Below, one piece after another: positions 13,081-63,442 of a stretch of DNA of 64,000 bases. The notes beneath the pieces are model-generated. The model worked only from the letters and a program-made list of their open reading frames with translations, was not told where the DNA came from and did no database searches. Every line of letters begins with the position of its first letter. Within the stretch, counting starts at the first letter, position 1. This stretch comes from Sphingopyxis macrogoltabida (GTDB lineage: Bacteria > Pseudomonadota > Alphaproteobacteria > Sphingomonadales > Sphingomonadaceae): positions 132,953 through 196,952 of the forward strand of contig NZ_CP012701.1 of the NCBI RefSeq assembly GCF_001307295.1, given 5' to 3'. A program made the position numbers and the translations under genes.

Positions 13081-13103
13081 TCTCCTCCACCCCCCTCTCC
13101 TTT
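13081..13103 (-). promoter_or_regulatory. Leader purine tract, copy A (before 12492-13058 gene)
   Basis: Reads GGAGAGGGGGGTGGAGGAG on the gene strand, 23-45 nt before the ATG. No clear Shine-Dalgarno hairpin is visible in this copy. Confidence 0.45.
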
Positions 13104-13199
13104 CTCACTTCCTGAGCTTGTGGCTGAATGCCCACAAGGGGTCTGGTCCAGCCTGAGGATTGCCGGTCAGCCAATTGTCCGGATGCAGCCGCTAGCGCG

Positions 13200-13345
13200 G
13201 CAGCGATGCCCGCAAGATGCGAAGCATCGAGAACGGGCAAGGCGCGCCGGGCCAAGGTAAAAGTTCGGCTGATACATTCAGGGATCGCGATGCTCGCGGT
13301 AGCGGGCGAAGGGGGTTCGATGCCCCCAGAGCCCGCCCCTTGCGC
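13200..13345. other. Gene-free stretch with stacked hairpins
   Basis: Between 13059 and 13395 I see no gene. The stretch has a nested hairpin GCCCG-GATGC/GCATC-CGGGC (13208-13238), CGCGA-TGC-TCGCG (13286-13298), and a two-part stem GCGGGC+GGGGG around TTCGATG closed by CCCCC+GCCCGC (13302-13336) with GAA/AGA internal loops. The last resembles a tRNA T-arm, but no tRNA or tmRNA can be built around it. Possibly a 3' UTR structure or small RNA. Confidence 0.35.
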
Positions 13346-13355
13346 AAAAGAAGAA

Positions 13356-13387
13356 CGGAAGGCCCCGGCATAAGCCGGAGCCTTCCG
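13356..13387 (-). terminator. Terminator after the DUF2493 gene
   Basis: Arms CGGAAGGC+CCGGC and GCCGG+AGCCTTCCG pair around ATAA. It lies nine bases after the stop codon of the DUF2493 gene. Confidence 0.6.
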
Positions 13388-13395
13388 AAGAGCGC

Positions 13396-14388
13396 TCACC
13401 CGAAGGTGCGCGAGCGCGTTTGCGCCTGATCGCTGATGCGGCGAATGTGCAGCGGCACGCCTGCCTGACGGAGGCGCTGTGCAAGGTTCGACTGGATGCC
13501 CGATCCTTCCCCAATGATCGCTTCGACCGGGTTCAGTTTGACGATGCTCTCGTTCCGCAGGAACGGAGCCCGGTTGCCGTGGCGCTGGTCAGGAACGAAC
13601 AGGATTGTGTTGACCCCGTTCTGCTGCGCCCATGCACCCGCCATGGCGTCGACGCCCTTGCGCATGCCGGTCGTGCCCAGGACCATGTTCGGGATCCGGG
13701 ACTTGATGTCGTCGAGGATAGCCCAGATCATCGCAAAATCGTGCCAATCCTTCTGGCCACCTGACACGATAACCAGCGGTCCATCGGGCTGGAATTGCGC
13801 TCTGCGATCCTTGGCGCGTGCTGCGAGGAAATCGCGTGCCTGAACTTGGCTTGCGGTCACCCCATTCTTGCTGACTTGCGATCCCCGTGCGGCCGTGAAG
13901 GGACGACCGGTTTCGACCCGGTAAACGTCCGCTGCATGGTCGCGCATCGCCTCGAGCGCTTCGCGGCACCCTTGCAGTGTCTGGCAGAGCTGTTGTGTTT
14001 CCTCGAGCTCGACAGCGTAGATTTCCGAAGGATCGAAGTGGCGTGCCATTTCGCCCAGCTTCTTTGCAGCATCGTCCTCGCGACCTTCAGCCAGGCGTGC
14101 GGTCATGTGGAACGAGTTGACCATGCCCCAGGCAAGCTGCTGCGCAAATTCCTCCATGCGCGTGTCCTTGAGGACATCGAAGATCGTTCCGATTGCCATC
14201 TCCACGGCGCGGCGCGCCATGTCGGGGTCCGGCATCTCTGCGGCGATTGGAGCCTCGATGATGTTGAGCTTGGCCAGATCGCTATGTTCGAGAAACGCCC
14301 CGTCGTAGGATTCCGTGATCCCTTCACGTGCATCGGCGAGATTGATCCGAGCCTGAGCCAGATCTGCAAACGAGTTGAAAACAGTCAT
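13396..14388 (-). CDS. DUF2493 (YspA/SLOG-like) domain protein
   Basis: A 330-aa protein. The start MTVFNSFADL is set by GGAGG at good spacing. The N-terminal two thirds are helical and acidic. The C-terminal third (from about residue 190) is the DUF2493 domain: PLVIVSGGQKDWHDFAMIWAILDD, then LGTTGMRKGVDAMAGAWAQQNGV and APFLRNE. That Rossmann-like SLOG fold is thought to bind nucleotide-derived ligands. Such proteins are very common on sphingomonad plasmids, with unknown role. A CGATTT-TCG-AAATCG hairpin lies just before the Shine-Dalgarno. Confidence 0.8.
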   Translation of the reverse strand: MTVFNSFADLAQARINLADAREGITESYDGAFLEHSDLAKLNIIEAPIAAEMPDPDMARRAVEMAIGTIFDVLKDTRMEEFAQQLAWGMVNSFHMTARLAEGREDDAAKKLGEMARHFDPSEIYAVELEETQQLCQTLQGCREALEAMRDHAADVYRVETGRPFTAARGSQVSKNGVTASQVQARDFLAARAKDRRAQFQPDGPLVIVSGGQKDWHDFAMIWAILDDIKSRIPNMVLGTTGMRKGVDAMAGAWAQQNGVNTILFVPDQRHGNRAPFLRNESIVKLNPVEAIIGEGSGIQSNLAQRLRQAGVPLHIRRISDQAQTRSRTFG

Positions 14389-15508: not shown

Positions 15509-15973
15509 TCAGGCTGCAATCGCGTTCAGACACGCCTCGAACACCTCCCGCTGTTTCGCGGCGGGAAATGCTGCCAAGGCATCGGTGACGGTGAACCAGC
15601 GCGCGTCAGCTATTTCTTCAGCCTGGAGTGCGAGAGGAGCATCGTCTCGAAGGCGAACAACGAACATCGCAGCTTCCTGACCATCATGGTCGAGCGCCTT
15701 TTTGGCCTTGTGTTCGGCGCTGTAGATGAAGCGGTTGCCAACTGGCAGCTGTTCCAGTTCTACTTCCAGCGTCACACCGAGTTCTTCGGCGATCTCCCTT
15801 CGCATCGCCTGATGCACAGTTTCGCCTTCCTCGACGCCGCCGCCAGCAAGGGTCCATTCCCCCTCACGGTAGCCGTGTGGGCGGACCAGCAAAAACTCGC
15901 CATGATCGTTGACGACAACGGCGCGGACTTTCTGGCGGAGTTTGAGCCCGCCCTCATGAAGAAATGCAGCCAT
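15509..15973 (-). CDS. NUDIX hydrolase
   Basis: A 154-aa enzyme that hydrolyses nucleoside diphosphates linked to another group. The Nudix box is clear (GGGVEEGETVHQAMRREIAEELG, residues about 44-66: G-x5-E-x7-REUxEExG is satisfied by G, E, REI, EE). The N terminus has the KVRAVVVNDHGEFLLVRP strand pair. Substrate cannot be told. Stands alone, divergent from the MFS gene 90 bp away. Confidence 0.9.
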   Translation of the reverse strand: MAAFLHEGGLKLRQKVRAVVVNDHGEFLLVRPHGYREGEWTLAGGGVEEGETVHQAMRREIAEELGVTLEVELEQLPVGNRFIYSAEHKAKKALDHDGQEAAMFVVRLRDDAPLALQAEEIADARWFTVTDALAAFPAAKQREVFEACLNAIAA

Positions 15974-20421: not shown

Positions 20422-20595
20422 CTTAGCCTAAGGCGCTGCCATCTTCGCCGGACCCCGCTCATGCAGGGTGGCTCGGCCCGGCGCCTATCCCCGGGATAAC
20501 CTTATTCCTTTCCTCCGATGCACTGTCTCCAACGTGGCTCTCAAAAGCCTGCGTGATGGAACGTGCGGTGCGTTGGACCAGAACCAAGGTCACAC

Positions 20596-25773: not shown

Positions 25774-26145
25774 CTAGCCGTCCACCTCTGTTGCCGGCAG
25801 CACCGGCAATAATGGGACGAGGCCCGCATCAATCGCAAAGCCCAGAGTCCTTGCGAGGCGGCAGGCTCGAGCGATTGACCCGTCTGGAACATCGAGCGCC
25901 TTTTCAATCTGCCCAAGGGTTTCGCCAGCGCCAGGTTCACAGACCGTGTGAAGCTTGCCCGGCTCTGCGGTGATAGCAAAGGGCCAGGTCATCGCGACAC
26001 CGACAACCCCTTCGTCGAGAATGAGCAGAGTATCGCCAGCAGCGATAGTCTCGTCGGTCTGTACGGCGTCGTAGGCATTGCCCGTCGAAGCGAACGCATG
26101 GATCCGCCACGCGCTAAAGGCGAAGCGCTCGCTGTCAGTCAGCAT
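25774..26145 (-). CDS. Hypothetical protein
   Basis: A 123-aa protein beginning MLTDSERFAFSAWRIHAFAS. It has a beta-rich centre (GDTLLILDEGVVGVAMTWPF) and a proline-rich end. It overlaps the 26139-26654 gene by seven bases and is surely cotranscribed with it. Family not recognised. Confidence 0.55.
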   Translation of the reverse strand: MLTDSERFAFSAWRIHAFASTGNAYDAVQTDETIAAGDTLLILDEGVVGVAMTWPFAITAEPGKLHTVCEPGAGETLGQIEKALDVPDGSIARACRLARTLGFAIDAGLVPLLPVLPATEVDG

Positions 26146-26654
26146 GGCAGGCCCCCTTCGGAGAAGGCGCGCTGCGCCGCTTCTGGAAAGGCTGCGGTGA
26201 GGTTCCGGTGGAGCGGCCCGGAGGACGCCGGAAAGAAGGCGCCGGTGCTGCTCGGCCGTGTGATCCGCAGCGCGCTTGCGACGGCATCCACGACGAAACC
26301 CGCAAGCTGATCGCTCGCCGTTAGTTTGCCGAATTCAGGCGGTGCAAACCCGGCCTGATGCCAGAAGGCGATGCCGGTCTCGAGGGTCTCGAGATAGCTG
26401 GCATGGCTGCCATCGTCCTGGTCATTGTCGATGCTCGCCTCGACTGTCCGGTAGGTCCCGAAATCATGAGCGTTGGCCTTGATCCGCAAGCTGATGCCGA
26501 CAGGCGGCGATCCGGCAACCGCAATCAGCGCAGCTCTGTAGAGCATGGCTTCTGCGTTATTCACGAGATCGAAATTGGGGGTGTGGCCGATCTGCGAACA
26601 GTCTTCGTTCCACGGAGCGCCGCCAAGATCGAGAGTCCAGTCTGTCTGTGCCAT
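26139..26654 (-). CDS. Hypothetical protein
   Basis: A 171-aa protein (MAQTDWTLDLGGAPWNEDCSQIG). Soluble, no recognised family; conserved-looking GISLRIKANAHDFGTYRTVEA strand pair. The leader is notable: the Shine-Dalgarno AAAGGAG sits exactly in the loop of a perfect 7-bp stem TTCAAGC/GCTTGAA (26654-26660/26668-26674), and a purine tract follows upstream. Confidence 0.6.
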   Translation of the reverse strand: MAQTDWTLDLGGAPWNEDCSQIGHTPNFDLVNNAEAMLYRAALIAVAGSPPVGISLRIKANAHDFGTYRTVEASIDNDQDDGSHASYLETLETGIAFWHQAGFAPPEFGKLTASDQLAGFVVDAVASALRITRPSSTGAFFPASSGPLHRNLTAAFPEAAQRAFSEGGLPC

Positions 26655-26678
26655 TCAAGCCTCCTTTGCTTGAACGGC

Positions 26679-26697
26679 ACCTCCCCCTCCTCTCTCG
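26679..26697 (-). promoter_or_regulatory. Leader purine tract, copy B (before 26139-26654 gene)
   Basis: Gene-strand sequence GAGAGGAGGGGGAGGTG, about 25-43 nt before the ATG. Between it and the ATG the 7-bp stem described for the gene holds the ribosome site in its loop. Confidence 0.5.
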
Positions 26698-26751
26698 CAG
26701 GCAGAGTTCCTACAGCAGGTCTGGTGAGCCCGACAGCAGCGGGCAAAAGAA

Positions 26752-26786
26752 AAGGCCCGCCCGCGACAAATGCGCGGACGGGCCTT
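26752..26786 (-). terminator. Terminator after the DUF736 gene
   Basis: Arms AAGGCCCGCCCGCG and CGCGGACGGGCCTT (one mismatch) around ACAAATG; on the minus strand the stem is followed by TTTTCTTTT. Located 54 bp after the DUF736 stop. Confidence 0.75.
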
Positions 26787-26839
26787 CCCGATGTGACCGG
26801 CGCGGGTCGCGGCACCGGTCACGGGGGGGCTTGTCCCGG

Positions 26840-27340
26840 TCAGGCGTCGACGCTCACGCGCGTCTTGCCCTTGGGTGCCGGAGCGGTGCTCTCGCCCAGA
26901 CCGTCGCCGCTGGCAGCCCCGCTGTCAACGCCGCGGTCGCTGGCCGGTTCGTCACCGGTGGCGGTGAGCGGCGGCAGGGCGCCTTCGCTCTCGCTGCCGA
27001 AGCCGTCGAGCGAGGCCTTGGGCTTCGAACGGCGCCAGGCAACATTGAAACTGCCGTCGTTCTGCTGGAACATCGCGACCGGGATCGGCGCCGAGAGGCT
27101 GGGGTCGTCGATCTGGCCCGACAGGAAGCACTCGCCGGTCTCGTTCGACGAGTATTCCCAGAGCGCGCCGATCTTGACCCAGCTGCGGCGGTCCGCCGAG
27201 AGCGCCATGAGATCGAACTTGGGTGCCCGCTCGTTGGTGGATTCGAAGGCGCGCAGAGCGACCGTCGCGCTGAAGGTCAGGGTGGTGATACGGCCGATGT
27301 GAACGCCTTCTGCGTTGGCCTTGAGGGTGCCGATGTTCAT
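26840..27340 (-). CDS. DUF736 family protein
   Basis: A 166-aa protein. The N-terminal 105 residues are the DUF736 domain (MNIGTLKANAEGVHIGRITTL, then APKFDLMAL and WKIGALWEY-like strands), a small beta fold found on alphaproteobacterial conjugative elements. The rest is a disordered Ser/Gly/Asp tail ending in a basic KGKTRVSVDA. AGGAG precedes the ATG. Function unknown. A purine tract lies in the leader and a strong terminator follows. Confidence 0.85.
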   Translation of the reverse strand: MNIGTLKANAEGVHIGRITTLTFSATVALRAFESTNERAPKFDLMALSADRRSWVKIGALWEYSSNETGECFLSGQIDDPSLSAPIPVAMFQQNDGSFNVAWRRSKPKASLDGFGSESEGALPPLTATGDEPASDRGVDSGAASGDGLGESTAPAPKGKTRVSVDA

Positions 27341-27383
27341 GTCAAATTCTCCTGATGCTGTCCGAACCCCTTGTCCGGAACAC

Positions 27384-27407
27384 CTTCTCCCATCCCCCCT
27401 CTCCTCC
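27384..27407 (-). promoter_or_regulatory. Leader purine tract, copy C (before DUF736 gene)
   Basis: Gene strand reads GGAGGAGAGGGGGGATGGGA, then AGAAG, 44-67 nt before the ATG. The stem between tract and ribosome site is weak (TCCG/CGGA). Confidence 0.5.
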
Positions 27408-27542
27408 GGGCCCGTGGCCCGGCCCGTGCGCCAGCCACCGCAGGCGCGCGTAATCCTGTCCAGCCCGGAGGGCTGAGGAGTCTCGATAGGTGCTTTGGAG
27501 CTGAACCGGCCCTGCTTCGAGCCCTGGGCGGTCCGTACCGAC

Positions 27543-27893
27543 TTAAGCTTCGGACGCGGGCCCGTCCTTGATCTGGCTGAGGCGGGCCATGAAGGCCTTG
27601 GCTTCGAGCTGATTGGGTCCATCGCGCGTGGCGAGGCAGGCCATCCTGTCGATCTCGAGCTGTGCGGCAAGACTTGCCTCGATTTGGCAATAGGGTTCGA
27701 GCACGCGGATTGCGTCAACTGCGCGGGGAAGCTCGCCGAAGGCGGTTCCGACCCATACGAGTTCGATCTCCTCCCCGTCTTCGTCAGGGGCGCTCAGAAC
27801 CTGTGCGAAATAGGTCTGAAGTGGACGGTCCCAGCCAACATAGGCACTTGCCGCCGCAGCCCCGTCACGAAGCGGTACTTTGTGTCTGCTCAT
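27543..27893 (-). CDS. Hypothetical protein
   Basis: A 116-aa protein (MSRHKVPLRDGAAAASAYVGWDRPLQTYF). GGGGAGG precedes the ATG. It has an acidic strand pair DEDGEEIELVWVGTAFGE and a C-terminal helix with LAAQLEIDRMACLATR. No family recognised; backbone location between DUF736 and DUF3768 genes. Confidence 0.6.
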   Translation of the reverse strand: MSRHKVPLRDGAAAASAYVGWDRPLQTYFAQVLSAPDEDGEEIELVWVGTAFGELPRAVDAIRVLEPYCQIEASLAAQLEIDRMACLATRDGPNQLEAKAFMARLSQIKDGPASEA

Positions 27894-27965
27894 ACGCTCG
27901 TTACCTCCCCACCATTTGCTCGGCTGATGCCCCGCAGCGCAGTGACATGTCCGCCCCTGAACTGA

Positions 27966-28337
27966 TCAGTAGTCCGCTGGCCGCATCAGCGTGATGACGC
28001 GCCGTGTCATCGCTGGATTGGCCGGATCCTCTGACCCGAACGCCAGTTCGGTATCGAAATAATCGATTTTCATCAGCACCTTGATGCCATCGACATCCAT
28101 GCTTGCAAAGTCTCGCTCGGGAGAATCCGGGGCGAAGGTGCAATGGCGCAGAGCGGCCATCAACCGGGCCTGGGCCATCATACTGTCTGCCACGGTGTCG
28201 CCGCTGAATTCTGCAAGCAGCCCGGAGGTCATGACGATGCGGGCCGTTCGGTCACGGCCCTGGCGTGCGGCATCATTGAGCAGCGCGATCCGCTCGGTGC
28301 GCTGCCGCGCGCAAGAGAGGTCGGTTGTGTCATGCAT
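27966..28337 (-). CDS. DUF3768 family protein
   Basis: A 123-aa protein matching the DUF3768 pattern: RIVMTSGLLAEFS near residue 33, FASMDVDGIKVLMKIDYFDTELAFGSEDPANPAMTRRVITLM in the C-terminal half (quoted in parts). The start MHDTTDLS is used; upstream frame is non-family. Widespread on alphaproteobacterial plasmids, function unknown. It follows the ATPase gene by 59 bp. Confidence 0.8.
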   Translation of the reverse strand: MHDTTDLSCARQRTERIALLNDAARQGRDRTARIVMTSGLLAEFSGDTVADSMMAQARLMAALRHCTFAPDSPERDFASMDVDGIKVLMKIDYFDTELAFGSEDPANPAMTRRVITLMRPADY

Positions 28338-28396
28338 TGGAGCTCTCCTCCCGATCAAAGGGGCGATCAGCGGGCAACCGGAAGGCCTCGCGGGCC

Positions 28397-29366
28397 TCAG
28401 CCGGCAGGCTGACAAGCGGACAGCTGAACATCGATCGCGGTCCCGGGGGCGACGGTAATAGCAACCTGCCGATCCTTGGGAATGACCCACAGGATGCCGG
28501 CGAGCGTGTCGCGGATACGTGCCGCAATGGCCTCTTCTTCGCCGAGCAGCACCCGGGCCGCGAGCTCGCGCGCATCGCGCAAGAAGTGCTCGTGCTGGGT
28601 GTCCCAAGAATCTGCCTCGCTGTCGTCGCTCGCGCAGAAACAGACGTTCTCGATCAGATCGACCAGCGTTTCAGGAGTCAGCGCCGGACCCGGCACATAG
28701 GCGATGCGGATCTGATTGACACCGCTGTACCAGCCATCCTCATCCACGACGAAGGCCACATCTGCCGGGATCCGTTCCTCGCGCTGCGTTTCGCTGGCGC
28801 GGTGGAAGACGCAGAACCTCAGTTCGATCGTCTCGGCACGCACATGGTCATCGAGCGGCGGGAAACTGCCGTTCTCGGCGATGACGTGGCCCTGCTCCCC
28901 GGCTGAAACATAGAAGCGCACGTTGCCGAGCTGATGCAGCGCGTCATACCAGCCATAGCCTGCGTAGGCAGGATGGTTCTCGACGAGGTGCGGGCGCAAA
29001 GGGTGCTCGCGCAGCGCGCGCTCCAGTCCCTGTGCAATATCGGGCTCAAGATCCGCGACAAGGATCGTTTCCGCACCTGCTGCGACCTCCTCATATTCGA
29101 CATTGACGTTGTCGCTCTCCGCGATGGCCGCATGCCAGCGGGGCAGGCAGGGGTCGGCCTCCGGCAGCGCGACCCCCAAATCGCGCGCTTCTTTCCAGTT
29201 CTCGAAGGAAAGCCGGTGCTGGCCTCTGTGCGCCAGCGCGGAATAGATCGTGCGCTTGCACGCTACCTGCAGCGCCGCAAAGGCGGCGTTCTCGACGAAT
29301 TCCTTGCGCGCCGGGAGCACAAGGGCAAGGCCCGGGGTGGCCCCGATATCGAGCCGTGCATGGTAG
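28397..29366 (-). pseudogene. GHKL-type ATPase, 3' part (split by IS1380 transposition unit)
   Basis: C-terminal 321 codons of the protein whose N-terminal part is at 34712-35420. Reading begins inside the 5-bp repeat GGTAG and continues HARLDIGATPGLALVLPARKEFVENAAF, then a long acidic region. Joining the two parts at the repeat gives GGKTYHARLDIG in frame and a 557-aa protein. The first in-frame start inside this part is a GTG at 29318-29320. Confidence 0.9.
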
Positions 29367-31301
29367 CCGGTATTTGCCGCGCCACACCTGCGCCCAGCCG
29401 AGGAACACCCGCTGGTCGCCCGTCAGGCCGTCCAGCGTCGGCGCCGGCTTGCCCTGCAGCGAGATGCGATAGGCGTCCAGTCCGAGCAGCAGCCCGCCGA
29501 GGTCGGCGATGTTCTCGCCCATGGTCAGGTCGCCGTTGATCTTGGCGCCGGGCAGGATCTCCACCGCGGCGTACTGCTCGCCGAGCTTCTTGGCCTGGGC
29601 CTGGAACTTGGCCGCGTCTTCGGCCGTCCACCAGTCGGTCAGCCGGCCGTCGCCGTCGCTCTTGCGGCCCTGGTCGTCGAAGCCGTGGGTGATCTCGTGG
29701 CCGATCACCCCGCCGATGGCGCCGTAGTTGATCGCCGGATCGCCGTTCGGGTCGAAGAAGGGCGGCTGCAGGATGCCGGCCGGGAAGACGATCTCGTTCT
29801 TGGTGGACGAGTAGTAGGCGTTGATGGTCGGCGGGGTCATGCCCCACTCCTCGTCGTCGACCGGTCCGCCGAGACGGTTCACCCGGAAGGCCCAGTCGAA
29901 GGCGGCGGCCCGCTCGACGTTGCCGTACAAATCGTTCTCGACCACCCGCAGGCCGGTGTAGTCGCGCCACTTGTCGGGGTAGCCGATCTTCACGTTGAAC
30001 TTGGCGAGCTTGTCGAGCGCCTTCTCCTTGGTCGGCGCGCTCATCCAGTCGAGCTTCTCGATGCGCGCCTTCATCGCCGACTTCAGGTCGGCGACGAGCT
30101 GCTCCATCTTGGCCTTGCTCTCCGGCGGGAAGTAGGCGGCCACATAGGGCTTGGCCAGAGCCTCGCCGATCTGGGAGTCCACCAGCGAAACGCCCCGCTT
30201 CCAGCGCGGCCGCTGCTCCGGCTGACCGGACAGGGTCTTCTGGCGGAACTCGTAGAAGGCCTGGTCGAAATCCTTCGACAGGTAGGGCGCGGCGTTGTCG
30301 GCCAGGTGGAAGGCCGACCAGGCCTTCAGCGTCTCGAGCGGCGTTCCGGCGTAGATCGCGGCGATCTTCGGGAAGGCGGTGTTCTCCGCGGCGATGACCC
30401 GCTTAACTCCGCCCAGGTCCGCCCCCTCCATGAAGGCGCGCCAGTCGAAGCCGGGCGCGAACGCGGCCAGCTGGTCGACCTCGTAGGGATTGTAGGTCTT
30501 GTCGTCGTCGCGCCGCTCGGCCCGGGTCCACGACACCTTCGCGATTTCGGTTTCGAGCGCCAGGATCTGCTTGGCGGCGTCGGCCGGGTTCTCCCAGCCG
30601 GACAGGGTCAGCAGCCGCGTGATGTATTCGACGTACTTCTCCCGCTGCGGGGCGAATCGCTCGACGAGGTAGTAGTCGCGGTCGGGCAGGCCCAGGCCCG
30701 CCTGGCCGAGGTAGACGGCGTAGCGCTCCGGCTCCTTGGCGTCGTCGTAGATGTAGGCGGAGAAGAAGGAGCCGCCGAAGCTCTTCATCGAGGCGCCCAT
30801 CAGCCGGGCGATGTCGTCACGGCTCTTCGCGGCGCGGATCGCGGCCATGTCCTGGGCCAGCGGCCTGGCGCCCAGCGCGTTGACGCCGGCCTCATCCATG
30901 AAGCTGCGGTACATGGCGCCAATCTGGGCTTCTTCGCCCGTCGCCGCGCGATTGGCGGCCGCCTTGTCCAGCACCGTCCGCATGCGGTTCACCGACAGCT
31001 CGTTCAGCGCGTCGAACACGCCGAACCGCGAGCGGTCGGAGGGGATCTCCATCTTCGAGAGATAGGTCCCGTTGGAGAAGTGGAAGAAGTTGTCACCCGG
31101 CTCCACGGCCCGGTCCATGCCGGACAGGTCGAAGCCCCAGGTCCCCATGCGGGGCGCTTCGGAGAGCTGCGGGCCGCCGCCGCCGCCGCCGGCCGTCTCG
31201 GCCTCCAGCAGGCCCGCGTGGGCGCGGTCGAAAGCGGCCGCCGGTTGGGCGGCGATGGCAAGTGCGGCCGCCGCGGCGGCCCCGAGCCAAAAGGTCTTCA
31301 T
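29367..31301 (-). pseudogene. M13-family metallopeptidase, 3' end lost
   Basis: A secreted zinc peptidase of the neprilysin family. A signal peptide is clear (MKTFWLGAAAAAALAIAAQPAAA). Zinc site: VIGHEITHGFDDQG and GENIADLGGL. The family sequence stops at WAQVWRGKYR, so about 50-60 residues of the C terminus (usually ending near RVRIW) are missing; beyond 29367 the frame runs on into unrelated backbone DNA to 29091. GC-rich, Caulobacter-like codon use. Inactive unless the tail is dispensable. Confidence 0.9.
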
Positions 31302-31380
31302 GAAGAAAAACACCTTGGATGATGCATAGTTGGGGCGGACCATGCCTCGCCCGGCCCCAACTTCGCTCATTACTTTTTTG

Positions 31381-33018: not shown

Positions 33019-33040
33019 CGGCGCCTCCAATACATAAAAG

Positions 33041-35420: not shown

Positions 35421-35449
35421 GGCAAAGGGTCCTTCATCGCACTGGTTCG

Positions 35450-35472
35450 CCCTTCCCCTCCCCCTTCCCTCC
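35450..35472 (-). promoter_or_regulatory. Leader purine tract, copy D (before the ATPase gene)
   Basis: Gene strand reads GGGAAGGGGGAGGGGAAGGG, four runs of three or more G with 1-2-nt spacers, which fits the canonical G-quadruplex pattern. It lies 30-52 nt before the ATG; AAGGG/CCCTT arms enclose the ribosome site. Confidence 0.55.
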
Positions 35473-35523
35473 AGATCGGCGGATCGATGCCTGGCCATAG
35501 CCGGGCGGCCTTCGGCGAGCTCT

Positions 35524-36159: not shown

Positions 36160-36192
36160 GAGCGAACTCTCTTTCTTCCGGTTCGCTCACAT

Positions 36193-38337: not shown

Positions 38338-38341
38338 TGGA

Positions 38342-41658: not shown

Positions 41659-41677
41659 TGGCCTGCTCCTCAACAAA

Positions 41678-41713
41678 AAGAGGCCCGGCTCACTCAGGCG
41701 AGTGGCCGGGCCA
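41678..41713 (-). terminator. Terminator between parB and ardC
   Basis: On the minus strand GGCCCGGCCACTC and GAGTGAGCCGGGCC (one bulge) pair around GCCT, followed by TCTTTTT. It lies 28 bp after the parB stop and 20 bp before the ardC start. Confidence 0.75.
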
Positions 41714-41740
41714 GGTCATCAGGAGGGGTGTTTTGCCGCC

Positions 41741-43834: not shown

Positions 43835-43879
43835 CGTCGTCACTCCTGATGTGCACCCGGCAATCACCCGGGCACACAT

Positions 43880-43897
43880 CCCCTCCCCCTCCCCTTC
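43880..43897 (-). promoter_or_regulatory. Leader purine tract, copy G (before the ParB-like gene)
   Basis: Gene strand reads GAAGGGGAGGGGGAGGGG, 46-63 nt before the ATG. A stem-loop (CCCGG/CCGGG plus TGTG/CACA) lies between tract and ribosome site. Confidence 0.55.
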
Positions 43898-44211
43898 TGA
43901 TTTGCGTTTCACGCAGACCTCAGGGTTATTCGTTGTCGCCCCACGGATGCAAAGCGTGGCATTCTTCGGATTTGGAGCGCGCGGCTCGTCAGAGGTCAGA
44001 ATGCCCTAATGGTTGGATGCTCATGAGGAGGCGATCCTTGGATCGCCACAATTCACAGCCCGAGCAGCCAGATTCGGATGCCGACCGTGGCTCAGCCGGT
44101 CGCGACTGCCAGAATCGCCGTCTAGTTCTGCCCGAAGCGGACATGCCGCTTTCGGGATGGCGCATCACACCCGCGAGTGTCGCAAAGTGGGTGGTTTTCT
44201 GCCGTTGGGCA
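43898..44211. other. Gene-free stretch at the backbone-cargo border
   Basis: No gene supported. CCCGAAGCGG/CCGCTTTCGGG forms a stem with one bulge at 44131-44156. This is where the backbone island ends and the permease-ars cargo begins; no target repeat could be recognised. Confidence 0.4.
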
Positions 44212-52150: not shown

Positions 52151-53365
52151 TCAGGCGGCTTTGGCGGTGATGTGTAGGGGCTGATTTTCCTCCTCGATCA
52201 TGGGTTGGTTGAGTTCGGCCATGCCTTCGATCTGCATGTATCGGTGCTGGAGCTGCCACTCGTCGTTCTGCTCCATCAGCACAGCCCCGACGAGGCGGAT
52301 GATGCTGTCTTCGTTCGGGAAGATTCCGACGACGTCGGCGCGGCGCTTGACCTCCTTGTTGAGCCGCTCGAGCGGATTGGTTGAGTGTAACTTCGTGCGG
52401 TGCTGGGTGGGGAAGCCGGTGTAGGCGAGCACGTCGGTTTCGGCCTCGTCCATGCAGGCGCCGAGCTTGGGCCAACGGGTGCGCAACTGGTCGGCGACCT
52501 GTCGCCAGACCTGCGTTGCGCTTTTCTGATCGGGCTGCAGGAAGACCTGGCGGATCGCGGCGGCGACGACAGTGTTCTGGCCCTTGGGCACATAGGACAG
52601 GGCATTGCGCATGAAGTGCACCCGGCAGCGCTGCCAGGTGGCGCCCATGACGCGGGTGATCGCGCCCTTGAGGCCCTCGTGAGCATCGGAGATGACCAGC
52701 TTCACGCCGGTAAGACCGCGCCGAACAAGGTCCTTCAGGAAGTCGGACCAGAAGACCTCCGCTTCCGAGGGGCCGATATGCAGGCCGACGATCTCGCGCC
52801 GGCCCTCGGTGTTGACGGCCATGGCGATTATTGCGGCAACGCTGATGATCCGCCCGCCTTCGCGTACCTTGAGATAGGTGGCATCGAGCCAGAGATACGG
52901 CCATTCGCCGGTGAGCGGGCGTTTCAGAAAGGCATGGACGCGCTCGTCAATGTCCTTGCAAAGCTTGGAGACGGTGGACTTGGAGATGCCGGTCATGCCC
53001 ATGGCCTGGACGAGTTCATCGACCCGCCGGGTGCTGACCCCGCCGATCCACGCTTCCTGGATCACCGCAACCAGCGCTTTCTCGACCATCTTGCGGGGCT
53101 CAAGGAAGCCCGGAAAATAGGACCCAGCACGCAGCTTGGGGATTTTCAGGTTCAGCGTGCCTACCCGGGTATCCAGCGAACGGTCGCGATAGCCGTTGCG
53201 CCAGGTCGCGCGCTCGCTGCTGCGTTCGTGGCGACCCGCGCCGATCAGGCCATCAACGTCGGCCTCCATGATCAGCTGCAGCACGTTCTCGGCGATGGTG
53301 CGCAAAAAATCCGGTTGGCCGCCCTTTGCAGCCAGCTCTTCGATCAGTAATCTGTCCTCGGTCAT
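52151..53365 (-). CDS. IS256-family transposase (copy 2)
   Basis: 404 aa, translated sequence identical to copy 1, with the same DDE residues and the same GAGGAG ribosome site. The identity shows that the two insertions are recent or kept alike by gene conversion. Confidence 0.95.
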   Translation of the reverse strand: MTEDRLLIEELAAKGGQPDFLRTIAENVLQLIMEADVDGLIGAGRHERSSERATWRNGYRDRSLDTRVGTLNLKIPKLRAGSYFPGFLEPRKMVEKALVAVIQEAWIGGVSTRRVDELVQAMGMTGISKSTVSKLCKDIDERVHAFLKRPLTGEWPYLWLDATYLKVREGGRIISVAAIIAMAVNTEGRREIVGLHIGPSEAEVFWSDFLKDLVRRGLTGVKLVISDAHEGLKGAITRVMGATWQRCRVHFMRNALSYVPKGQNTVVAAAIRQVFLQPDQKSATQVWRQVADQLRTRWPKLGACMDEAETDVLAYTGFPTQHRTKLHSTNPLERLNKEVKRRADVVGIFPNEDSIIRLVGAVLMEQNDEWQLQHRYMQIEGMAELNQPMIEEENQPLHITAKAA

Positions 53366-53443
53366 CGGGAACTCCTCTTCGTCACGGTTGAAGTGTGCAA
53401 ACTCCACCATAACGATGAACCCGGTGGCCACCAGCGACGCCGC

Positions 53444-53475
53444 ATTCCGGGGTGGGGCATGCCCCACCCCGGAAT
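53444..53475. repeat. 32-bp perfect palindrome in the IS256 copy 2 leader
   Basis: Same palindrome as at 10071-10102. Confidence 0.9.
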
Positions 53476-53522
53476 ACACCATCGCCTACACCGGAAATTA
53501 CACCACGAGCGCGGACGCTAAC

Positions 53523-57473: not shown

Positions 57474-57496
57474 ACCGGCGAATTCCCATGATAGTG

Positions 57497-57513
57497 TGCG
57501 CAGTTGCTGCGCA
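57497..57513. promoter_or_regulatory. Palindrome upstream of the first RIT recombinase
   Basis: TGCGCAG-TTG-CTGCGCA, perfect, 52 bp before the start codon of the first recombinase and inside the left repeat. Likely recombinase or repressor site. Confidence 0.5.
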
Positions 57514-57564
57514 TTATATTGGTTGCGAACCTCGGCGGTCCCTGGACCAGCTGAGGAGGCAATC

Positions 57565-58797
57565 ATGTTGAAGTTGCATGACGAGTTGATCACCGAACTC
57601 TCGAATTCGCTCACCACACAGAATTACAATCCCGTGGTCGTGGCGAACCACCGTCTCTACGCCCGCGCGTTTCTCGATTATCTGGCCGAGTGCGATATAC
57701 AGGTCGAGACTGTGACGCCGCAGCAGGTCGATCAGTATTTTGGCTATGCGGTTCAGGATTTTGAGATCCAGTACGGTCGGCCTCCCAGTGCGCGTTGGCA
57801 CATGTTGCCCCGCACCGCGATCGCCAAGCTCCTCCGGCTTGCTCAAGGCAATTGGCCCCCGGACGCAGAAATGATCGGTCCCGATGACGAGCATCGACAT
57901 GAAATTTGCCGCGAATACGAGGCATGGCTGCGCGAGGAGCGCGGTTTGGCAAGCGCGTCCATTGCGGCGCTGATGTGGGAGGCGCGAAACTTCCTGCGAT
58001 GGCAGTTCGACCGGGCCGGTGCCGCCAGCCTCGAAACGTTGAGCATCGTGGACATCGATCTCTACATGGACATGCGCGCGCCTGGTTTACGGCGCAAATC
58101 ATTGGCCGATGTCGCTGAGCGTCTCCGTTCGGTGGTTCGCCATCTGCATCGGACGGGTTGCATCCCGACCGATCTGACGCCACACATCATCGGCCCCATG
58201 CTCTATGCCTACGAAGATGTGCCGTCGACGCTGGAAAGGAGCCAAATCGCCGCGGTTCTGGCGACAACGCAGGAGGACAGATCGCCACGCGGACTACGCG
58301 ATTATGCGATACTTCAGCTGCTTGCCACGTATGGGCTGCGCGAAGGTGAGATATGCCGCCTTCGGCTCGATGACGTGGACTGGCGCGCAGAATCCCTCCG
58401 GATCTGCCACACCAAGACCAACGCGTACTCGTACATGCCGCTAATGGTGACTGTTGGTGAAGCGCTGCTGGATTATCTGCGCCTTGGGCGGCCCCAGGTT
58501 GAAGTGCGGGAAATCTTCGTCCGATCCTGCGCACCCTATATCGCAATGACGAACCTGTACGGCATGATCCGCGGTCGGTTGGCCGCCGCAGGCGTAGTGC
58601 CAGCAGGAAAGCGGGGGCCGCATGTCTTCCGCCACGCACGTGCGGTCGAAATGCTGCGGGCATCGGTCCCGCAAAAGATCATCGGCGACGTGCTCGGGCA
58701 TCGATCCACCGAATCCACCAATACTTATCTCAAACTGGCAACAGATGATCTCCGAGCCGTGGCACTCGAGGTGCCTGGAATGGAGGTGCTGTCATGA
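57565..58797 (+). CDS. RIT tyrosine recombinase A
   Basis: A 410-aa site-specific recombinase. N-terminal SAM-like core-binding domain (about 100-200), catalytic domain with Arg in TYGLREGEICRLR, HVFRHARAVEML (HxxR), VLGHRSTESTNTYLKLA (His and Tyr). GAGGAGG precedes the ATG. The stop overlaps the next start as ATGA. Confidence 0.93.
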   Translation: MLKLHDELITELSNSLTTQNYNPVVVANHRLYARAFLDYLAECDIQVETVTPQQVDQYFGYAVQDFEIQYGRPPSARWHMLPRTAIAKLLRLAQGNWPPDAEMIGPDDEHRHEICREYEAWLREERGLASASIAALMWEARNFLRWQFDRAGAASLETLSIVDIDLYMDMRAPGLRRKSLADVAERLRSVVRHLHRTGCIPTDLTPHIIGPMLYAYEDVPSTLERSQIAAVLATTQEDRSPRGLRDYAILQLLATYGLREGEICRLRLDDVDWRAESLRICHTKTNAYSYMPLMVTVGEALLDYLRLGRPQVEVREIFVRSCAPYIAMTNLYGMIRGRLAAAGVVPAGKRGPHVFRHARAVEMLRASVPQKIIGDVLGHRSTESTNTYLKLATDDLRAVALEVPGMEVLS

Positions 58798-60149
58798 GCG
58801 CCTGGCACGATCCCGATCGCACCGTCGTCGACGCCTTCCTGGTAAAATCGCAGTTCCGGCCGGGAAGCGTACCGACATATCGCTGGTTCCTTTGCACCTT
58901 CGAAGATGTTGCCCGCCGGCATCCGGCGGTGGACCGGCAGATGCTCGACGCCTGGCTGAAGGAGATGCAAAAACGTTGGCGATTGTCGACGCTGCTCAAT
59001 CAGGTCTGCATTGTCGACCGCTTCCTCGACCACCTCGTCGAAATCGGGCTGATCGCCGACAACCCTGTTGCTGCACTTCGCCGTCGGTACAACGTCAAGC
59101 AAAGCAAGCCGATCTGGCGGGCCTTGGCTTCCCCGAATCCCGACGAATCCTTGGCCGCGTTACGACGGCCTGCGCCCTTCGGCAGCGTGCTGGGTGACTT
59201 CATGCAAGACCATGTCATGCTGATGCGCAGCCGGGGATATCAATATGAAGCGCAGGCTCACTGGCTGCTGCGGTTCGATCGGTTCCTTCAGGCCCGTCCC
59301 GACCTCGCGGAGCAACCACTTGAGGCAATGATTGCGAGCTGGGCGGCTGCCAAGCCGACCCGCAACCACGCGGCTGAATGCCAGAAGCTGGCGCGCATCC
59401 TGACCAAGGCGCGGTTCCGCCTCGATCCGACTATCCCGCCAAAGCGCTTCAATCCCCGGCCAGAGCGGGAAGTAGCGCGGGAGCATCGGCAACCGCATAT
59501 CTTCAGCCCGGCTGACGTTCGGCGTATGCTCGATACCGCACGGACTTATCCGTCGCCGGACGCTCCGCTGCGGCCGTTGACCCTCTACACCATGATCATG
59601 CTGGCCTATTGTGCCGGGCTACGGCGAAGCGAGCTGGCATGGCTCGATCTTGGTGACGTGGACCTGCAATCAAGCACGATCACGATCCGGGAAACGAAGT
59701 TCTACAAGACCAGGATCTTGCCTCTATCCGACAGTGTCGCGGTCGAACTGCGCGCGTACATCGATGCGAGGCGGCGCGCTGGCGGCCCACAGAACCCGAA
59801 ATCAGGGCTGTTCTGGCATGCCCACTTAAATGACCGCTACAGGCCCGAGGCGGTTACGACAATGATTACCAACGTCATGCGCCGTGCTGGGCTCAAGCCC
59901 GCTTCGGGCCGGACCGGGCCGCGGGTCCATGACCTTCGTCACTCGATGGTGGTGAACCGCATCCTCCAGTGGTACCGGTCCGGCATTAACCCTCAGGAAA
60001 AACTGCACTTCCTCTCGACCTACATGGGGCACCGGGATCTCCACTCCACGCTGGTCTACATCACCGTCACGCAGGATCTGTTGCAGGAAGCCAGTGAACG
60101 GTTCCGCGCGCTCGGCGCCCCGTGCCTTGTCACGGAGGCGCGGCCATGA
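58794..60149 (+). CDS. RIT tyrosine recombinase B
   Basis: A 451-aa recombinase. Catalytic residues: Arg in YCAGLRRSELAWL, VHDLRHSMVVNR (HxxR-like, HDLRH), YMGHRDLHSTLVYITVT (His and Tyr). Overlaps both neighbours by four bases, so all three are made from one mRNA in fixed ratio. Confidence 0.93.
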   Translation: MSAWHDPDRTVVDAFLVKSQFRPGSVPTYRWFLCTFEDVARRHPAVDRQMLDAWLKEMQKRWRLSTLLNQVCIVDRFLDHLVEIGLIADNPVAALRRRYNVKQSKPIWRALASPNPDESLAALRRPAPFGSVLGDFMQDHVMLMRSRGYQYEAQAHWLLRFDRFLQARPDLAEQPLEAMIASWAAAKPTRNHAAECQKLARILTKARFRLDPTIPPKRFNPRPEREVAREHRQPHIFSPADVRRMLDTARTYPSPDAPLRPLTLYTMIMLAYCAGLRRSELAWLDLGDVDLQSSTITIRETKFYKTRILPLSDSVAVELRAYIDARRRAGGPQNPKSGLFWHAHLNDRYRPEAVTTMITNVMRRAGLKPASGRTGPRVHDLRHSMVVNRILQWYRSGINPQEKLHFLSTYMGHRDLHSTLVYITVTQDLLQEASERFRALGAPCLVTEARP

Positions 60150-61150
60150 GGAAAGGCAATCCATTGCCCGCGTTGTTGCGGGCGTTCTTCCAGGAGTGGC
60201 TGGCCGAGCAGCGCAGCGCGTCAATCCACACGATCCGCTCTTATCGCGACACCTGGCGGCTGCTGCTTCGGTTCGTCGCGGAGCGAAAAGGCTGCGGGGT
60301 CGCGCGGCTGACGCTCACCGACGTCTCGGCCGGCGAGGTGCGCGCGTTCCTTCATCATACCGAGCATGGCCGCAAGACCACGATCGGCACGCGGAACTGC
60401 CGACTGGCCGCCATCCGCAGCTTCTTCAGCTTCGTGGCGGACAAGAATCCGGAATACATCGCGCAGTGCTCAGAGGTCCTGGCTGTTCCGTTGAAGCGGG
60501 AGCCCACCTCCGCGCCGTGCTACCTCGAGCCCGAGGAGGTCGAGGCCATCCTCGCCCAGCCCAACCGATCGACACTCGAAGGGCTGCGCGACCATGTACT
60601 GCTCTCGTTCCTCTATAACAGTGGCGCGCGAATCCAAGAGGCGCTTGACCTCTGTCCCGAAGCAATCCGGTTCGATGCACCGAACTTCGTGCGTCTTTAC
60701 GGCAAGGGGCGCAAGGAACGCATCTGCCCGCTCTGGCCAGAAACCGTGGCATTGCTCAGGAAGCTACTGGAGCGACAGCCGCGTGCGCCCGATGAGCGGA
60801 TCTTCGTCAATCGATACGGTGAACCGCTAGGGGCGTCAGGGGTGCGGTTCAAGCTCAACGCCTACGTGGAACAAGCCGCGAAATCGACGCTGACCCTCCA
60901 GTCAAAACACGTTACGCCTCACAGCTTCCGGCACGCGACCGCCGTCCACCTCGTTGCCGCCGGAGTCGATATCACCGTCATCCGCAGTTGGCTCGGGCAC
61001 GTCAGTCTCGATACGACCAATCACTATGCTCAGGCCAATCTGGAGACCAAACGAAAGGCGCTGGAACAGGTTGGCGCCCCGGCGGCGAGCAACGTGCCAC
61101 CTTCGTGGAAGCGAGATGCCAATCTGATGGGATGGCTCGACACCCTATAG
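60146..61150 (+). CDS. RIT tyrosine recombinase C
   Basis: A 334-aa recombinase with an N-terminal SAM-like domain (FQEWLAEQRSASIHTIRSYRDTWRLLLRF) and catalytic YNSGARIQEAL, TPHSFRHATAVHL, WLGHVSLDTTNHYAQ. The ATG overlaps the stop of recombinase B. It ends 46 bp before the right inverted repeat. Confidence 0.93.
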   Translation: MRKGNPLPALLRAFFQEWLAEQRSASIHTIRSYRDTWRLLLRFVAERKGCGVARLTLTDVSAGEVRAFLHHTEHGRKTTIGTRNCRLAAIRSFFSFVADKNPEYIAQCSEVLAVPLKREPTSAPCYLEPEEVEAILAQPNRSTLEGLRDHVLLSFLYNSGARIQEALDLCPEAIRFDAPNFVRLYGKGRKERICPLWPETVALLRKLLERQPRAPDERIFVNRYGEPLGASGVRFKLNAYVEQAAKSTLTLQSKHVTPHSFRHATAVHLVAAGVDITVIRSWLGHVSLDTTNHYAQANLETKRKALEQVGAPAASNVPPSWKRDANLMGWLDTL

Positions 61151-61195
61151 AATAATGTGAAGGACGTGGCGAAATGTTCCGCAGCTTTGCAGGAC

Positions 61196-61240
61196 TACGC
61201 CGCGTTCCTCCGCATTACCGCTTCCTCGCGATAAGCGATC
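61196..61240 (-). repeat. RIT terminal inverted repeat, right
   Basis: Inverted copy of 57429-57473. Beyond it lie 20 bp of a TTATG...CATAA palindrome (61241-61260) not present at the left end. Confidence 0.93.
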
Positions 61241-61260
61241 TTATGGCGAGCTGCGCATAA

Positions 61261-63396
61261 GATGGCCCAGGCGTCGGCATAAGTGTCGTAGACGGCGATC
61301 TGTTCGGCGGTCAGATCATGTTTCAGGATCTCGTATTCGACGCCTGCAAAGCTAAGCGCGCGCGCCTGATAGAGGCCCAGTGCCTTGAGGTCCCGCGACA
61401 CGAGTTCCATCGCAGCGATGCCCCCTGCCCTGATCTGGCTGATGAAATCTTCCCTGTTGGCAAACGCAGTGCCGGGCCCCCACAGACCGAGCCGCACGGC
61501 ATAGGCAAGGTTGTTGACCTCCGAGGCCCCAGTCGCAGAGGCGTAGAGAACCCGGGCATCGGGCAGATTGTTTTGCAGCAGCACGCCGGCGATGCCCTGC
61601 AGCGATCCGCTTTTCGTGCCGCGGGCGCCCTCGCCTCCTGCAACACCGCCCATCTCGTGGCTCTCATCGAAGGCGATGACACCTTCGAAATCCTCGCCCG
61701 CCCAATCGAGCAGCTGCTTCAGGCGGGTGGCGTCCTGACGCTGGCTGCGAAGGGTCGGGTAGGTGACGAACAGGATCCCTTCGCGAAACGGAACCGCCTG
61801 ATCGATCTTCCAGTTGGAAAGCGGCTGAATGTCGGCCGCTAGCCCTCCGATAGCACTCCAGTCGCGGCGCGCGTCTTCGAGCAGGCTTTCGTTCTTCGAG
61901 ATCCAGATGGCCTTACGGCGTCCCGCAAGCCAGCCATCAAGGATGCAGGCGGCGATCTGCCTGCCCTTCCCTGCCCCCGTGCCATCGCCAAGGAAATAGC
62001 CTTTGCGGTAGGCGCGCCCATGCTCGTCGAGTTGCAGGCCAACGCCTTCTTTAGCGGGAACGAACAGGCCAGGCAGATACTGCTGCCACGCGTTCCCGGC
62101 ATAGATGACAGTTTCGATCTGGGCCTCGGATAGCAGGCTTTCTTGCAAGACCCGATCCTGCAGCGCCGGGACATAATCCGGGATTGGTGCCGGGATCGAA
62201 CCCATGGCCACGCTTTCGACGAGCGGTGTCGGATGTTCGCGTGCACCAGCAATATCGACCCGGCTTGGCCGGTACGGGATGTAGACCCCGCTTTGCTCAC
62301 CGAGCACGCGCGGCTTGTCTAAGGTACTGAACGCCAGCGCTGCAATCGTTGGGGCTTGGGCTACCCTCGCTTTGACGGGCTTTGTGATCGGCGTTGCGCG
62401 CATGGCTTTGAAGAGCGCACCCGGCTTTGCTTTCGGCGGCACCGCGCGCGGTTCGCAGTCGGGCTGGGCTGTCACGCGTTTGATGATTGGAACCGCAGAC
62501 GCGACGTCTGCAACTGTCTGCCGCGCCAAAACTGCTGGTCTGATCTGCCCCGGGATCTTGTCGATCACGTACAAGCGCACGGCCACGCTGGTGCCCTGTT
62601 TGTGATAGCATTTATCGAGCCGGATGGATGTGCGGACCGTGCAAGAGGCAAAGGTGTCTTCGTAGATTTTCGCAAGCTTTGCGCTCGTCGTGAACCAGTC
62701 CGGCATGATCGCGACGATCCGTCCCCCCTGCTTGAGGCGCGTTATGGCAGCGCGCAGGTGACGCACCGCTGCGAACTCGTCTGCTCCTCGTCCCATTGAC
62801 CGGGAGAACGGCGGGTTCATGAGGATCAGGCTTGGCTGCACAGCCGCGTCGAGATGGGAAGCCAGCATGGCTCCATCGATCCCTGTGATGGTGGCATCGG
62901 GAAACAGCAGTGCCAGCTTTTCACGCCTGCGCGGATCGATTTCGTTGAGATGTAATGCGCTGACATCAGGCAAAGTTGCCACGAGAGCGCCATGTCCGGC
63001 GCTCGGTTCAAGAACGATATCGGTTGCGAGTGGCTGCGCCAAAATCACGGATAGCGCTGCGAGGTCTGCGGGCGTCGAGAATTGCTGGAACCTGATCTGG
63101 TCTTCACTTCTGACCGTGTGTGTCGGCAGTGCCTCGATAAGCGCACTGATCTCCGAAATCTGGGTCAGCATCTGAGGTTTGTTCAGCAGTCCGGCCATGT
63201 GGCGCGTCAAGGCCGCCTCGAGCAGGTCAAAAGCGTCCCTCTGGCTCCAGGCGCCGTTTGCGGAGCCCTCCCCGTAGAGCTGGCGCATCGTCTCAAACAG
63301 GCGTTGCTTGTTCGCCAGTCCCGTGGCGATGGCGTGCTGGATTTCGGTGATTGCTGCGTCCAGCTTCTGGCTGGATTGTTCAAAAAGGTCGGTCAC
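61261..63396 (-). pseudogene. Methylase-strawberry-notch helicase, 5' part
   Basis: First 712 codons. N-terminal Class I DNA methyltransferase domain with VLEPSAGHGALVATL (motif I) and LILMNPPFSRS (NPPF, motif IV, an N6-adenine type). Then an SF2 helicase N half: GDGTGAGKGRQIAACILDG (Walker A), IAFDESHEMGG (DESH) and YASATGASEV. GTG start with AGGAG upstream. The frame continues into the RIT end and stops after VMRRNAA. Methylase-helicase fusions of this kind are found on alphaproteobacterial plasmids and phages and are thought to modify or protect incoming DNA. Confidence 0.92.
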
Positions 63397-63426
63397 GGTC
63401 TGCTCCTGATGCTGAACCGCATCAGG

Positions 63427-63442
63427 CCTTCCCCCTCTCCCT
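63427..63442 (-). promoter_or_regulatory. Leader purine tract, copy H (before methylase-helicase gene)
   Basis: Gene strand reads AAGGGAGAGGGGGAAG, 31-46 nt before the GTG. Between them is a perfect 8-bp stem CCTGATGC/GCATCAGG (63405-63412/63419-63426) that includes part of the ribosome site. Confidence 0.55.

Follow-up and report, generated by a model that had tools for sequence, protein, structure and literature searches.

Putative leader RNAs with a G-rich purine tract before probable establishment genes of a Sphingopyxis plasmid and its relatives

Introduction

Why are eight unrelated genes on one strand of a Sphingopyxis plasmid each preceded by a G-rich purine tract, shortly before the start codon? 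The stretch considered here (the window) comprises 64,000 nt of Sphingopyxis macrogoltabida DNA, positions 132953–196952 of a contig of 196,952 bases (C2; NZ_CP012701.1) in a genome whose main contig is 4.76 Mb; its closest named relatives are Sphingopyxis and Blastomonas plasmids. To judge from sequence comparisons, the eight sites are likely to be one family of cis-acting 5′ leader RNAs acting in translational control. The tract accompanies the leader genes and not their neighbors, and most copies have a hairpin next to the tract, with compensatory changes and with G-U pairs on the sense strand. Together they probably define the establishment regulon of a sphingomonad plasmid family, in what is likely its leading region.

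Establishment genes have to be expressed on arrival in a new host and kept quiet afterwards. The controls known to us work at promoters or with single-stranded DNA. If a whole set of plasmid genes shares a conserved RNA leader, translation would become a further level of control, and the leader could serve as a sequence handle by which unknown establishment or anti-defense genes are named; candidates are three leader genes without a Pfam match (A, B, and F below) and those of the DUF736 and DUF7007 families, which have no known function.

The leaders in the window

Purine tracts were scored by log-odds (G 0.70, A 0.26, vs. background). On the minus strand of the window, the seven highest scores (22.7 to 16.1) belong to leaders D, A, C, G, B, E, and H; the eighth segment is inside the ArdC gene (40743–40762, 14.0) and the ninth is leader F (13.8), making the leaders eight of the nine strongest tracts. 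No purine segment on the plus strand of the window scores above 10.9. The binomial probability of eight of nine falling within 41 × 110 nt of sense upstream DNA is 2e-11, for a threshold chosen after the data were seen. Of 41 window genes in a hand-compiled list, eight are preceded by a tract (13.8–22.7) and the other 33 score 9.6 or less, with an antisense maximum of 9.8; the impression that cargo genes are without the tract thus held for this list. Another 140 kb of the same plasmid (loci L011–L017, overlapping the window by ~7 kb) contain one segment of at least 13.5, at 13.6.

A preliminary description of the window had placed eight tracts on the minus strand, in the direction of the gene, and all eight were confirmed, 22–44 nt before a start codon. 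It gave their recurring core as GRGRGGGGGA. As a G-rich purine profile this stands, but the literal motif is exact at only three of the eight leaders, and with one mismatch allowed it is not above chance in the window (17 seen, 19.0 expected); there is also one exact match on the plus strand, at 53571.

Beginning from the MobF relaxase side, leader A (tract 13081–13113, score 21.3; this and all other leaders and leader genes are on the minus strand) has the Shine-Dalgarno (SD) sequence AGGAGG at ~13064–13069 and no stable hairpin. Gene A (12492–13058; 188 aa) has no Pfam match, and its AlphaFold2 model (pLDDT 90) gave no convincing fold match. The leader B tract (26680–26696, 16.4) is followed by a 12 bp hairpin (26649–26679; minimum free energy (MFE) −18.3), with the SD AAAGGAG in the loop and the start codon of gene B (26139–26654; 171 aa, no Pfam match) in the 3′ arm. 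Leader C (tract 27383–27407, 19.9) has the hairpin UCCGGAC/GUUCGGA (27361–27379), with a kept G-U pair, and an SD at ~27349–27353; its gene (26840–27340) is a DUF736 (PF05284) member. Leader D (tract 35450–35472, 22.7), again with no stable hairpin, precedes the 5′ part of a HATPase-like gene (34686–35420; relatives are 557 aa). The leader E tract (36192–36208, 16.4) begins within the stop codon of the upstream gene, and its hairpin UGAGCGAAC/GUUCGCUCA (36159–36189), with a weak ribosome site in the loop, reaches the start codon of a DUF7007 (PF22653) gene (35524–36159).

The leader F tract (40331–40348, 13.8) is likewise located at the upstream gene's stop codon; the hairpin CCAUUGCA/UGCAAUGG (40312–40330) has an SD immediately 3′ and precedes gene F (39658–40299; 213 aa, no Pfam match). 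Leader G (tract 43879–43898, 19.2) has the hairpin UGUGUGCCCGG/CCGGGUGCACA (43850–43878), read from an identical sequence in L034, and the SD AGGAG at 43843–43847. Gene G (41741–43834) is ParB-like, with an HTH_ParB match and ParB_N slightly below the cut-off; domain and homolog queries for it started at codon 2 (43831). It has distant relatives in enterobacterial plasmids (83–88% of length aligned), one of them annotated yubM, and is followed by ArdC (40708–41676), which has no leader of its own. Leader H (tract 63427–63444, 16.1) has the hairpin CCUGAUGC/GCAUCAGG (63405–63426), which overlaps the SD and was read from an identical sequence in L018; gene H (61195–63396) is strawberry-notch-like, with 733 aa vs. 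1369 aa in relatives.

All five stems previously described (at 26654, 36159, 40299, 63396, and parB) were recovered, and that of leader C is additional; leaders A (13058) and D (35420) have none by the criterion of a stem next to the tract. The ribosome site had been placed in the loop at two leaders, which is correct for B (26654); at E (36159) there is only a weak site, where relatives have AAGGAGAG.

Genes D and H are both shorter than the copies in relatives (window 28400–34690 and 57490–63396). The open reading frames (ORFs) beside them are unannotated at the corresponding place in L009, and include phage-type integrases at 58794–61150.

Conservation in related plasmids

ParB-like homologs from the order were matched in 132 of 396 genomes and gene F homologs in 36 of 396, with 30 loci used for each; 33 loci with DUF736 homologs (flanks up to 10 kb, and including a class-wide search) and twenty further stretches of ~20 kb were also included. 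Counts are of distinct upstream regions with a tract score of at least 12. Given this gene-led sampling, the neighbor genes of these loci serve as the fair control.

One of the refutation tests set in the preliminary description asked whether related plasmids show enrichment of the tract before homologs of these genes, and they do: the tract is present in 170 of 211 distinct upstreams of the eight leader families, vs. 5 of 216 for eleven neighbor families. Among the former it occurs in 13/13 for A, 18/20 for B, 24/49 for DUF736, 20/29 for HATPase, 24/26 for DUF7007 (the two misses score 11.7 and 11.9), 31/32 for F, 31/33 for ParB-like, and 9/9 for strawberry notch. The neighbors give 5/40 for ArdC and otherwise zero: SLOG (0/20), RES (0/14), Xre (0/15), DUF6927 (0/29), MobF (0/10), the coupling protein T4CP (0/12), and the families p123 (0/16), p116 (0/26), p428 (0/20), and p198 (0/14). 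Tract-plus-SD-plus-ORF candidates belong to leader-family clusters in 242 of 264 cases, a figure partly built in because sampling was led by leader genes. Genes for toprim (DUF7146), DUF3768, and HerA-like proteins also have the tract in some other plasmids.

The tract is conserved down to ~30% protein identity. For ParB-like leaders, 35 of 36 rows score at least 13.6, down to 41% identity; the family A leader is kept at 27–59%; and family F has the tract in 30 of 30 loci (four with a start codon mis-assigned by the script). In L033 (ParB-like) and L031 (strawberry notch), the tract, hairpin, and gene are kept among close relatives, with different DNA upstream of the tract.

A covariance model built from 12 ParB-like leaders (R2) matches, apart from ParB-like leaders, the window's DUF736 leader (E 0.019), as well as the L106 DUF736 leader (0.21) and the L110 F leader (0.4), these E-values being rough; it has no match with E ≤ 1 in L011–L017 or across 140 kb of chromosomal DNA. 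None of the Rfam 15 covariance models overlaps a leader, at gathering score or at E ≤ 10 (there are 11 matches elsewhere).

Folding of the sense strand

Ninety-one nonredundant leaders were kept, of which two doubtful rows were excluded from most counts, leaving 89. The mean hairpin z-score is −1.74 for the sense strand and −0.92 for the antisense (87 leaders, four of the 91 rows being dropped), vs. −0.30 for control upstreams (n = 101); it is near zero in families A (−0.57) and D (−0.44). With G-U and A-C allowed alike, the stem cells contain 46 G-U and 10 A-C, vs. 395:324 in shuffles (p 4e-5); with the two doubtful rows retained the counts are 49 and 12. The excess of G-U over A-C indicates that it is the sense RNA that folds. 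Invariant U-G (12/12) and G-U (11/11) pairs occur in leader stems.

That the structure is kept while the stem bases vary, as the preliminary description had it, was borne out by two-sided changes in three families. The ParB-like stem (12 hand-chosen rows) has 9 pairs, 94.4% paired, 3 of them with two-sided changes; the DUF736 stem 8 pairs, 94.3% paired, 2 with two-sided changes; and the DUF7007 stem (8 rows) 6 pairs, 76.1% paired, 3 with two-sided changes.

Of the 89 leaders, 70 have a stem, which starts at a median distance of 2 nt from the tract. In 43 leaders this stem precedes the SD; 18 stems have the SD in their loop and 5 in their 3′ arm, and in 3 leaders the SD comes first. By the stricter stem-next-to-tract criterion, 52 leaders have the SD after the stem and 16 in the loop, 20 are stemless, and one is unclassified.

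Leaders often follow closely on another gene: 49 of 88 begin no more than 60 nt from where a preceding same-strand ORF ends (12/13 for DUF7007, 14/20 for F), and several begin right at the stop codon. There is therefore often little room for a promoter between them, though one within the upstream gene is possible.

The tract and translation initiation

The tract has a median length of 22 nt (n = 89), with G commoner in the middle and A commoner at the 5′ end. The sequence GGGNAGGG is found in 61 of 89 tracts vs. 28.3 in shuffles, and AGGGGGA in 49 vs. 17.5; G6 is avoided (16 vs. 42), for part of which a general avoidance of long homopolymers may account. By family, the enrichment is clear in E, F, and G; for GGGNAGGG it is weak or absent in A and DUF736. 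The tract is sequence-specific beyond its composition.

Its distance to the start codon varies with the hairpin. In the group with the SD after the stem, the tract end is a mean of 43.7 nt from the start, or 20.4 nt (sd 7.9) with the hairpin looped out; in the SD-in-loop group the mean is 30.1 nt, which would be the spacing once the hairpin has melted; and 16 of the 20 stemless leaders are at 22–30 nt, with a median of ~25 read off the list. These figures suggest the idea that ribosome binding requires the tract to sit ~20–30 nt from the AUG.

The leader would thus act at translation initiation, its parts following one another as G-rich purine tract, usually a hairpin, SD, and start codon. The tract could dock the 30S subunit by standby binding, G and A both being able to pair with the anti-SD; the hairpin would gate or position the true SD; in the state fit for translation the tract end, ~20–30 nt before the AUG, would be at the 5′ edge of the bound 30S subunit; and the outcome would be strong, coordinated expression of establishment proteins. 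The 30S subunit is quite possibly the docking partner, and a trans-acting factor, encoded by plasmid or host, a somewhat less probable one. In keeping with 30S docking, the duplex of tract and anti-SD averages −15.3 kcal/mol, vs. −9.7 for the SD region.

Several results weigh against this interpretation. Shuffled tracts give −14.9 kcal/mol with the anti-SD, hardly different from the real ones; since they pair nearly equally well, the sequence pattern of the tract calls for a further reader beyond the anti-SD, which ranks a trans-acting protein close behind 30S docking. Tract bases are 43% paired on average in the folded model, and in just 13 of 89 leaders are fewer than 20% paired (MFE), a prediction that speaks against an always-free standby site. 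No stem adjoins the tract in 20 of 89 leaders. Covariation in the DUF736 stem is modest, its pairing percentage being reached by 20 of 500 shuffles, and the DUF7007 alignment slips at one gap, a one-column slide scoring equal covariation. Model R2 finds only leaders G and C among the eight in the window and misses the other six. The DUF736 family has 25 misses, all but one (L103, from the order) contributed by the class-wide search; among the nine HATPase misses, seven are in the L053–L060 group. Finally, oriT was not located, and the identity of the leading region rests on gene content.

Runs of C immediately before the start codon are found in 33 of 89 leader genes vs. 17 of 130 controls, and could pair with the tract. 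In relatives they occur in the F, ParB-like, DUF736, HATPase, and strawberry-notch families and not in A, B, or E; in the window there is one only at 35421–35432.

Other possible readers

A trans-acting RNA-binding repressor, encoded by plasmid or host, might read the tract and hairpin and block the ribosome site in established cells; absent in a new recipient, it would allow a burst of translation, a translational zygotic induction. We consider this possible, though less likely than not. A sequence-specific tract motif is common to unrelated genes, the hairpin is conserved in shape more than in sequence, the SD is in or beside the hairpin, and the gene set is regulon-like. Transient repressor logic has been published for p576 establishment genes, at promoters (PMC8708921). 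No candidate regulator was found. A CsrA/Rsm regulon and a ProQ/FinO-controlled leader are both disfavored: the CsrA family (PF02599) has no match in the host genome, the same profile matching 3 of 14 control genomes, and the ProQ family (PF04352) has none either, with a match in 1 of the 14 (E. coli). The predicted folds of gene A and DUF736 have no significant match; the best DUF736 rows are trypanosome MRP1/MRP2 (E 0.06, TM 0.17), presumably RNA-binding proteins, in a match too weak to use.

A C-rich small RNA with anti-SD-like loops could instead pair with the tract, and probes of the CCCCUCCCC type do give strong predicted duplexes (−18.1 kcal/mol). However, any C-rich probe pairs, shuffled tracts giving −17.1. 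With plus-strand purine segments in the window scoring at most 10.9, there is no long complement on the leader strand, and L011–L017 contribute just the one segment of at least 13.5. No small RNA family reaches gathering score in the window; short complements and host small RNAs were not searched. On balance such an RNA is unlikely.

At the DNA level, the element might work as a promoter while the T-strand is single-stranded, as an operator, or as a polarity signal like KOPS, the FtsK-orienting sequence, whose motif is GGGNAGGG. The frequency of GGGNAGGG in tracts would suit this, as would its strand skew: within the window it occurs twice on the plus strand and 17 times on the minus strand (10 of the latter outside leaders), and elsewhere on the plasmid 19 times on the plus strand and 7 times on the minus strand, gene direction being a confounder in these counts. 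The eight leader genes are also all on one strand, like leading-region anti-defense genes (PMC11541004). Against it are the preference of the stems for G-U over A-C on the sense strand, the fixed position directly before SD and start, and the length of the stems (4–13 bp), which look too short for a promoter. A sigma-70 scan of 26100–44300, which leaves leaders A and H outside, gave one minus-strand site and none at a leader, though alphaproteobacterial promoters may depart from the consensus. A DNA signal is accordingly improbable.

An RNA G-quadruplex switch is very unlikely. Leader D fits the G3 rule, as the preliminary description noted, and two-layer quadruplexes are possible in 62 of 89 leaders; but G3×4 is found in 12 of the 89 nonredundant tracts vs. 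10.6 in shuffles and GG×4 in 62 vs. 56.8, so that the spacing is not clearly selected, and in the window D alone fits. Of the controls suggested in that description, the quadruplex switch is not favored, and a standby ribosome site, an RNA-binding protein, and a C-rich small RNA are still candidates; a leader common to probable establishment genes is supported.

Chance or composition, in the form of strong SD-like purine runs, could draw on the unenriched literal motif in the window, but the profile ranking there, the ParB-like and F homologs, and the contrast between leader and neighbor upstreams lead us to regard it as refuted by conservation across relatives.

A second class of leader

ParB-like genes of an Agrobacterium plasmid and of two Roseobacteraceae plasmids have weaker purine segments (8.9 to 12.1) and a conserved leader of their own, with the layout AGAGNGAGAG ... 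UGACGGG ... hairpin ... CCCGUC ... GGAG; the DUF932 genes of two of these plasmids carry it too. A covariance model of 22 such sequences (R1) has 18 pairs, 7 with two-sided changes. At E ≤ 1e-4 its 58 matches are spread over 27 of 385 alphaproteobacterial genomes; 12 of the 27 contributed model sequences and match by construction, and 15 did not. Two to four matches, mostly close together, are found in 19 of the 27. The matches are before ParB-like, ArdC, and DUF932 genes of conjugative elements (L180, L181, L182, L183–L188, L193–L197, L199, L200, L202–L209). Four are in the main contig (C1) of the host genome, near 4247775, 4249259, 4252583, and 454317. No Rfam family covers this leader in the loci scanned.

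Like the G-tract leader, the second class has the order purine element, hairpin, SD; it differs in its sequence-conserved two-tier stem (GACGGG/CCCGUC) and weaker purine segments. R1 matches no window leader at E ≤ 1, and common descent of the two classes is therefore unsupported. The sphingomonad G-tract and the widespread GACGGG leaders could conceivably be forms of one alphaproteobacterial translational establishment regulon, in which one factor, present in donors and missing in recipients, would release a burst of translation upon entry; this is speculative and rather doubtful. It is with the same reserve that such a regulon might be said to cover ParB-like, ArdC, DUF932, DUF736, strawberry-notch, and other leading-region genes.

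Gene context

The leader genes, all on the minus strand, continue on from the genes for a MobF (TrwC) relaxase (3738–6836, minus strand) and a TrwB-like coupling protein (6858–8651, minus strand). Interspersed among them are ArdC, a YAcAr (SLOG) gene, and unknowns, and the five close relatives additionally have an ssb gene. By this content, a sphingomonad plasmid family probably has its leading, or establishment, region here. Of the five close relatives, three were typed as MOBF and two as non-mobilizable, a mobF gene being annotated in one of the latter. Two distant tract-bearing plasmids were typed as MOBF with MOBP (L177) and as MOBP (L178), and the leader is thus not restricted to MOBF.

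Other features were seen in passing. A sul1 RNA (RF03058) is on the plus strand at 20447–20501, upstream of an ORF beginning at 20563. ORFs at 8778–10109 and 52151–53482 are probably a repeated mobile element, as judged from their equal length (443 aa) and same overlapping-ORF pattern. In the Sphingomonas sp. AAP5 plasmid p213 (L177), 15799–15878 is a group II intron end adjoining a reverse transcriptase gene.

Comparison with known systems

One comparison is with ribosome standby sites. To our knowledge, these have been described as a generic physical property and not as a conserved, sequence-specific motif of a plasmid regulon. The position of the tract fits such a site, though the small number of largely unpaired tracts in the MFE model (13 of 89, as above) does so less well. 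The likeness is in a landing stretch upstream of a structured ribosome site (PMC3936740).

Two other systems are relevant. EGeRS1, from pLS20-family plasmids of Bacillus, is 420–751 bp long, with copies 62–95% identical and multiple inverted repeats; no constitutive promoter is reported for the tested copy, and EGeRS2 contains a promoter under a repressor (PMC8708921). There, a repeated sequence directly upstream of the ribosome site in several establishment operons, one of them with an ardC gene, defines an establishment regulon (PMC8708921). The leaders, found in sphingomonad elements, differ in extending only ~40–100 nt from tract to start, with only the purine motif and the position of the hairpin common between genes. 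The leaders occupy an EGeRS1-type position, upstream of eight window genes and of the same families in relatives, with an establishment role suggested by gene content, but EGeRS1 membership was rejected on size and identity.

The Frpo hairpins of F-type leading regions mimic a double-stranded promoter with −35 and −10 elements (PMC11541004). Frpo and ssi are likewise hairpin elements upstream of one-strand leading-region genes; the leaders described here differ in their short stems, in having no promoter match where scanned, and in pairing that favors the sense RNA. A single-stranded DNA promoter of the Frpo/ssi kind is disfavored for want of −35 and −10 elements at the leaders within 26100–44300 and for the sense-strand G-U bias.

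The preliminary description knew of no described system with this layout. Its leaders do differ in size, sequence, and anatomy from those above, but repeated regulatory sequences of establishment genes have been described for the pLS20/p576 plasmids (PMC8708921), and single-stranded DNA promoters for F-type leading regions (PMC11541004). By analogy, the leaders may play a part comparable to that of EGeRS and Frpo; what would be new is an establishment regulon marked by a compact RNA leader.

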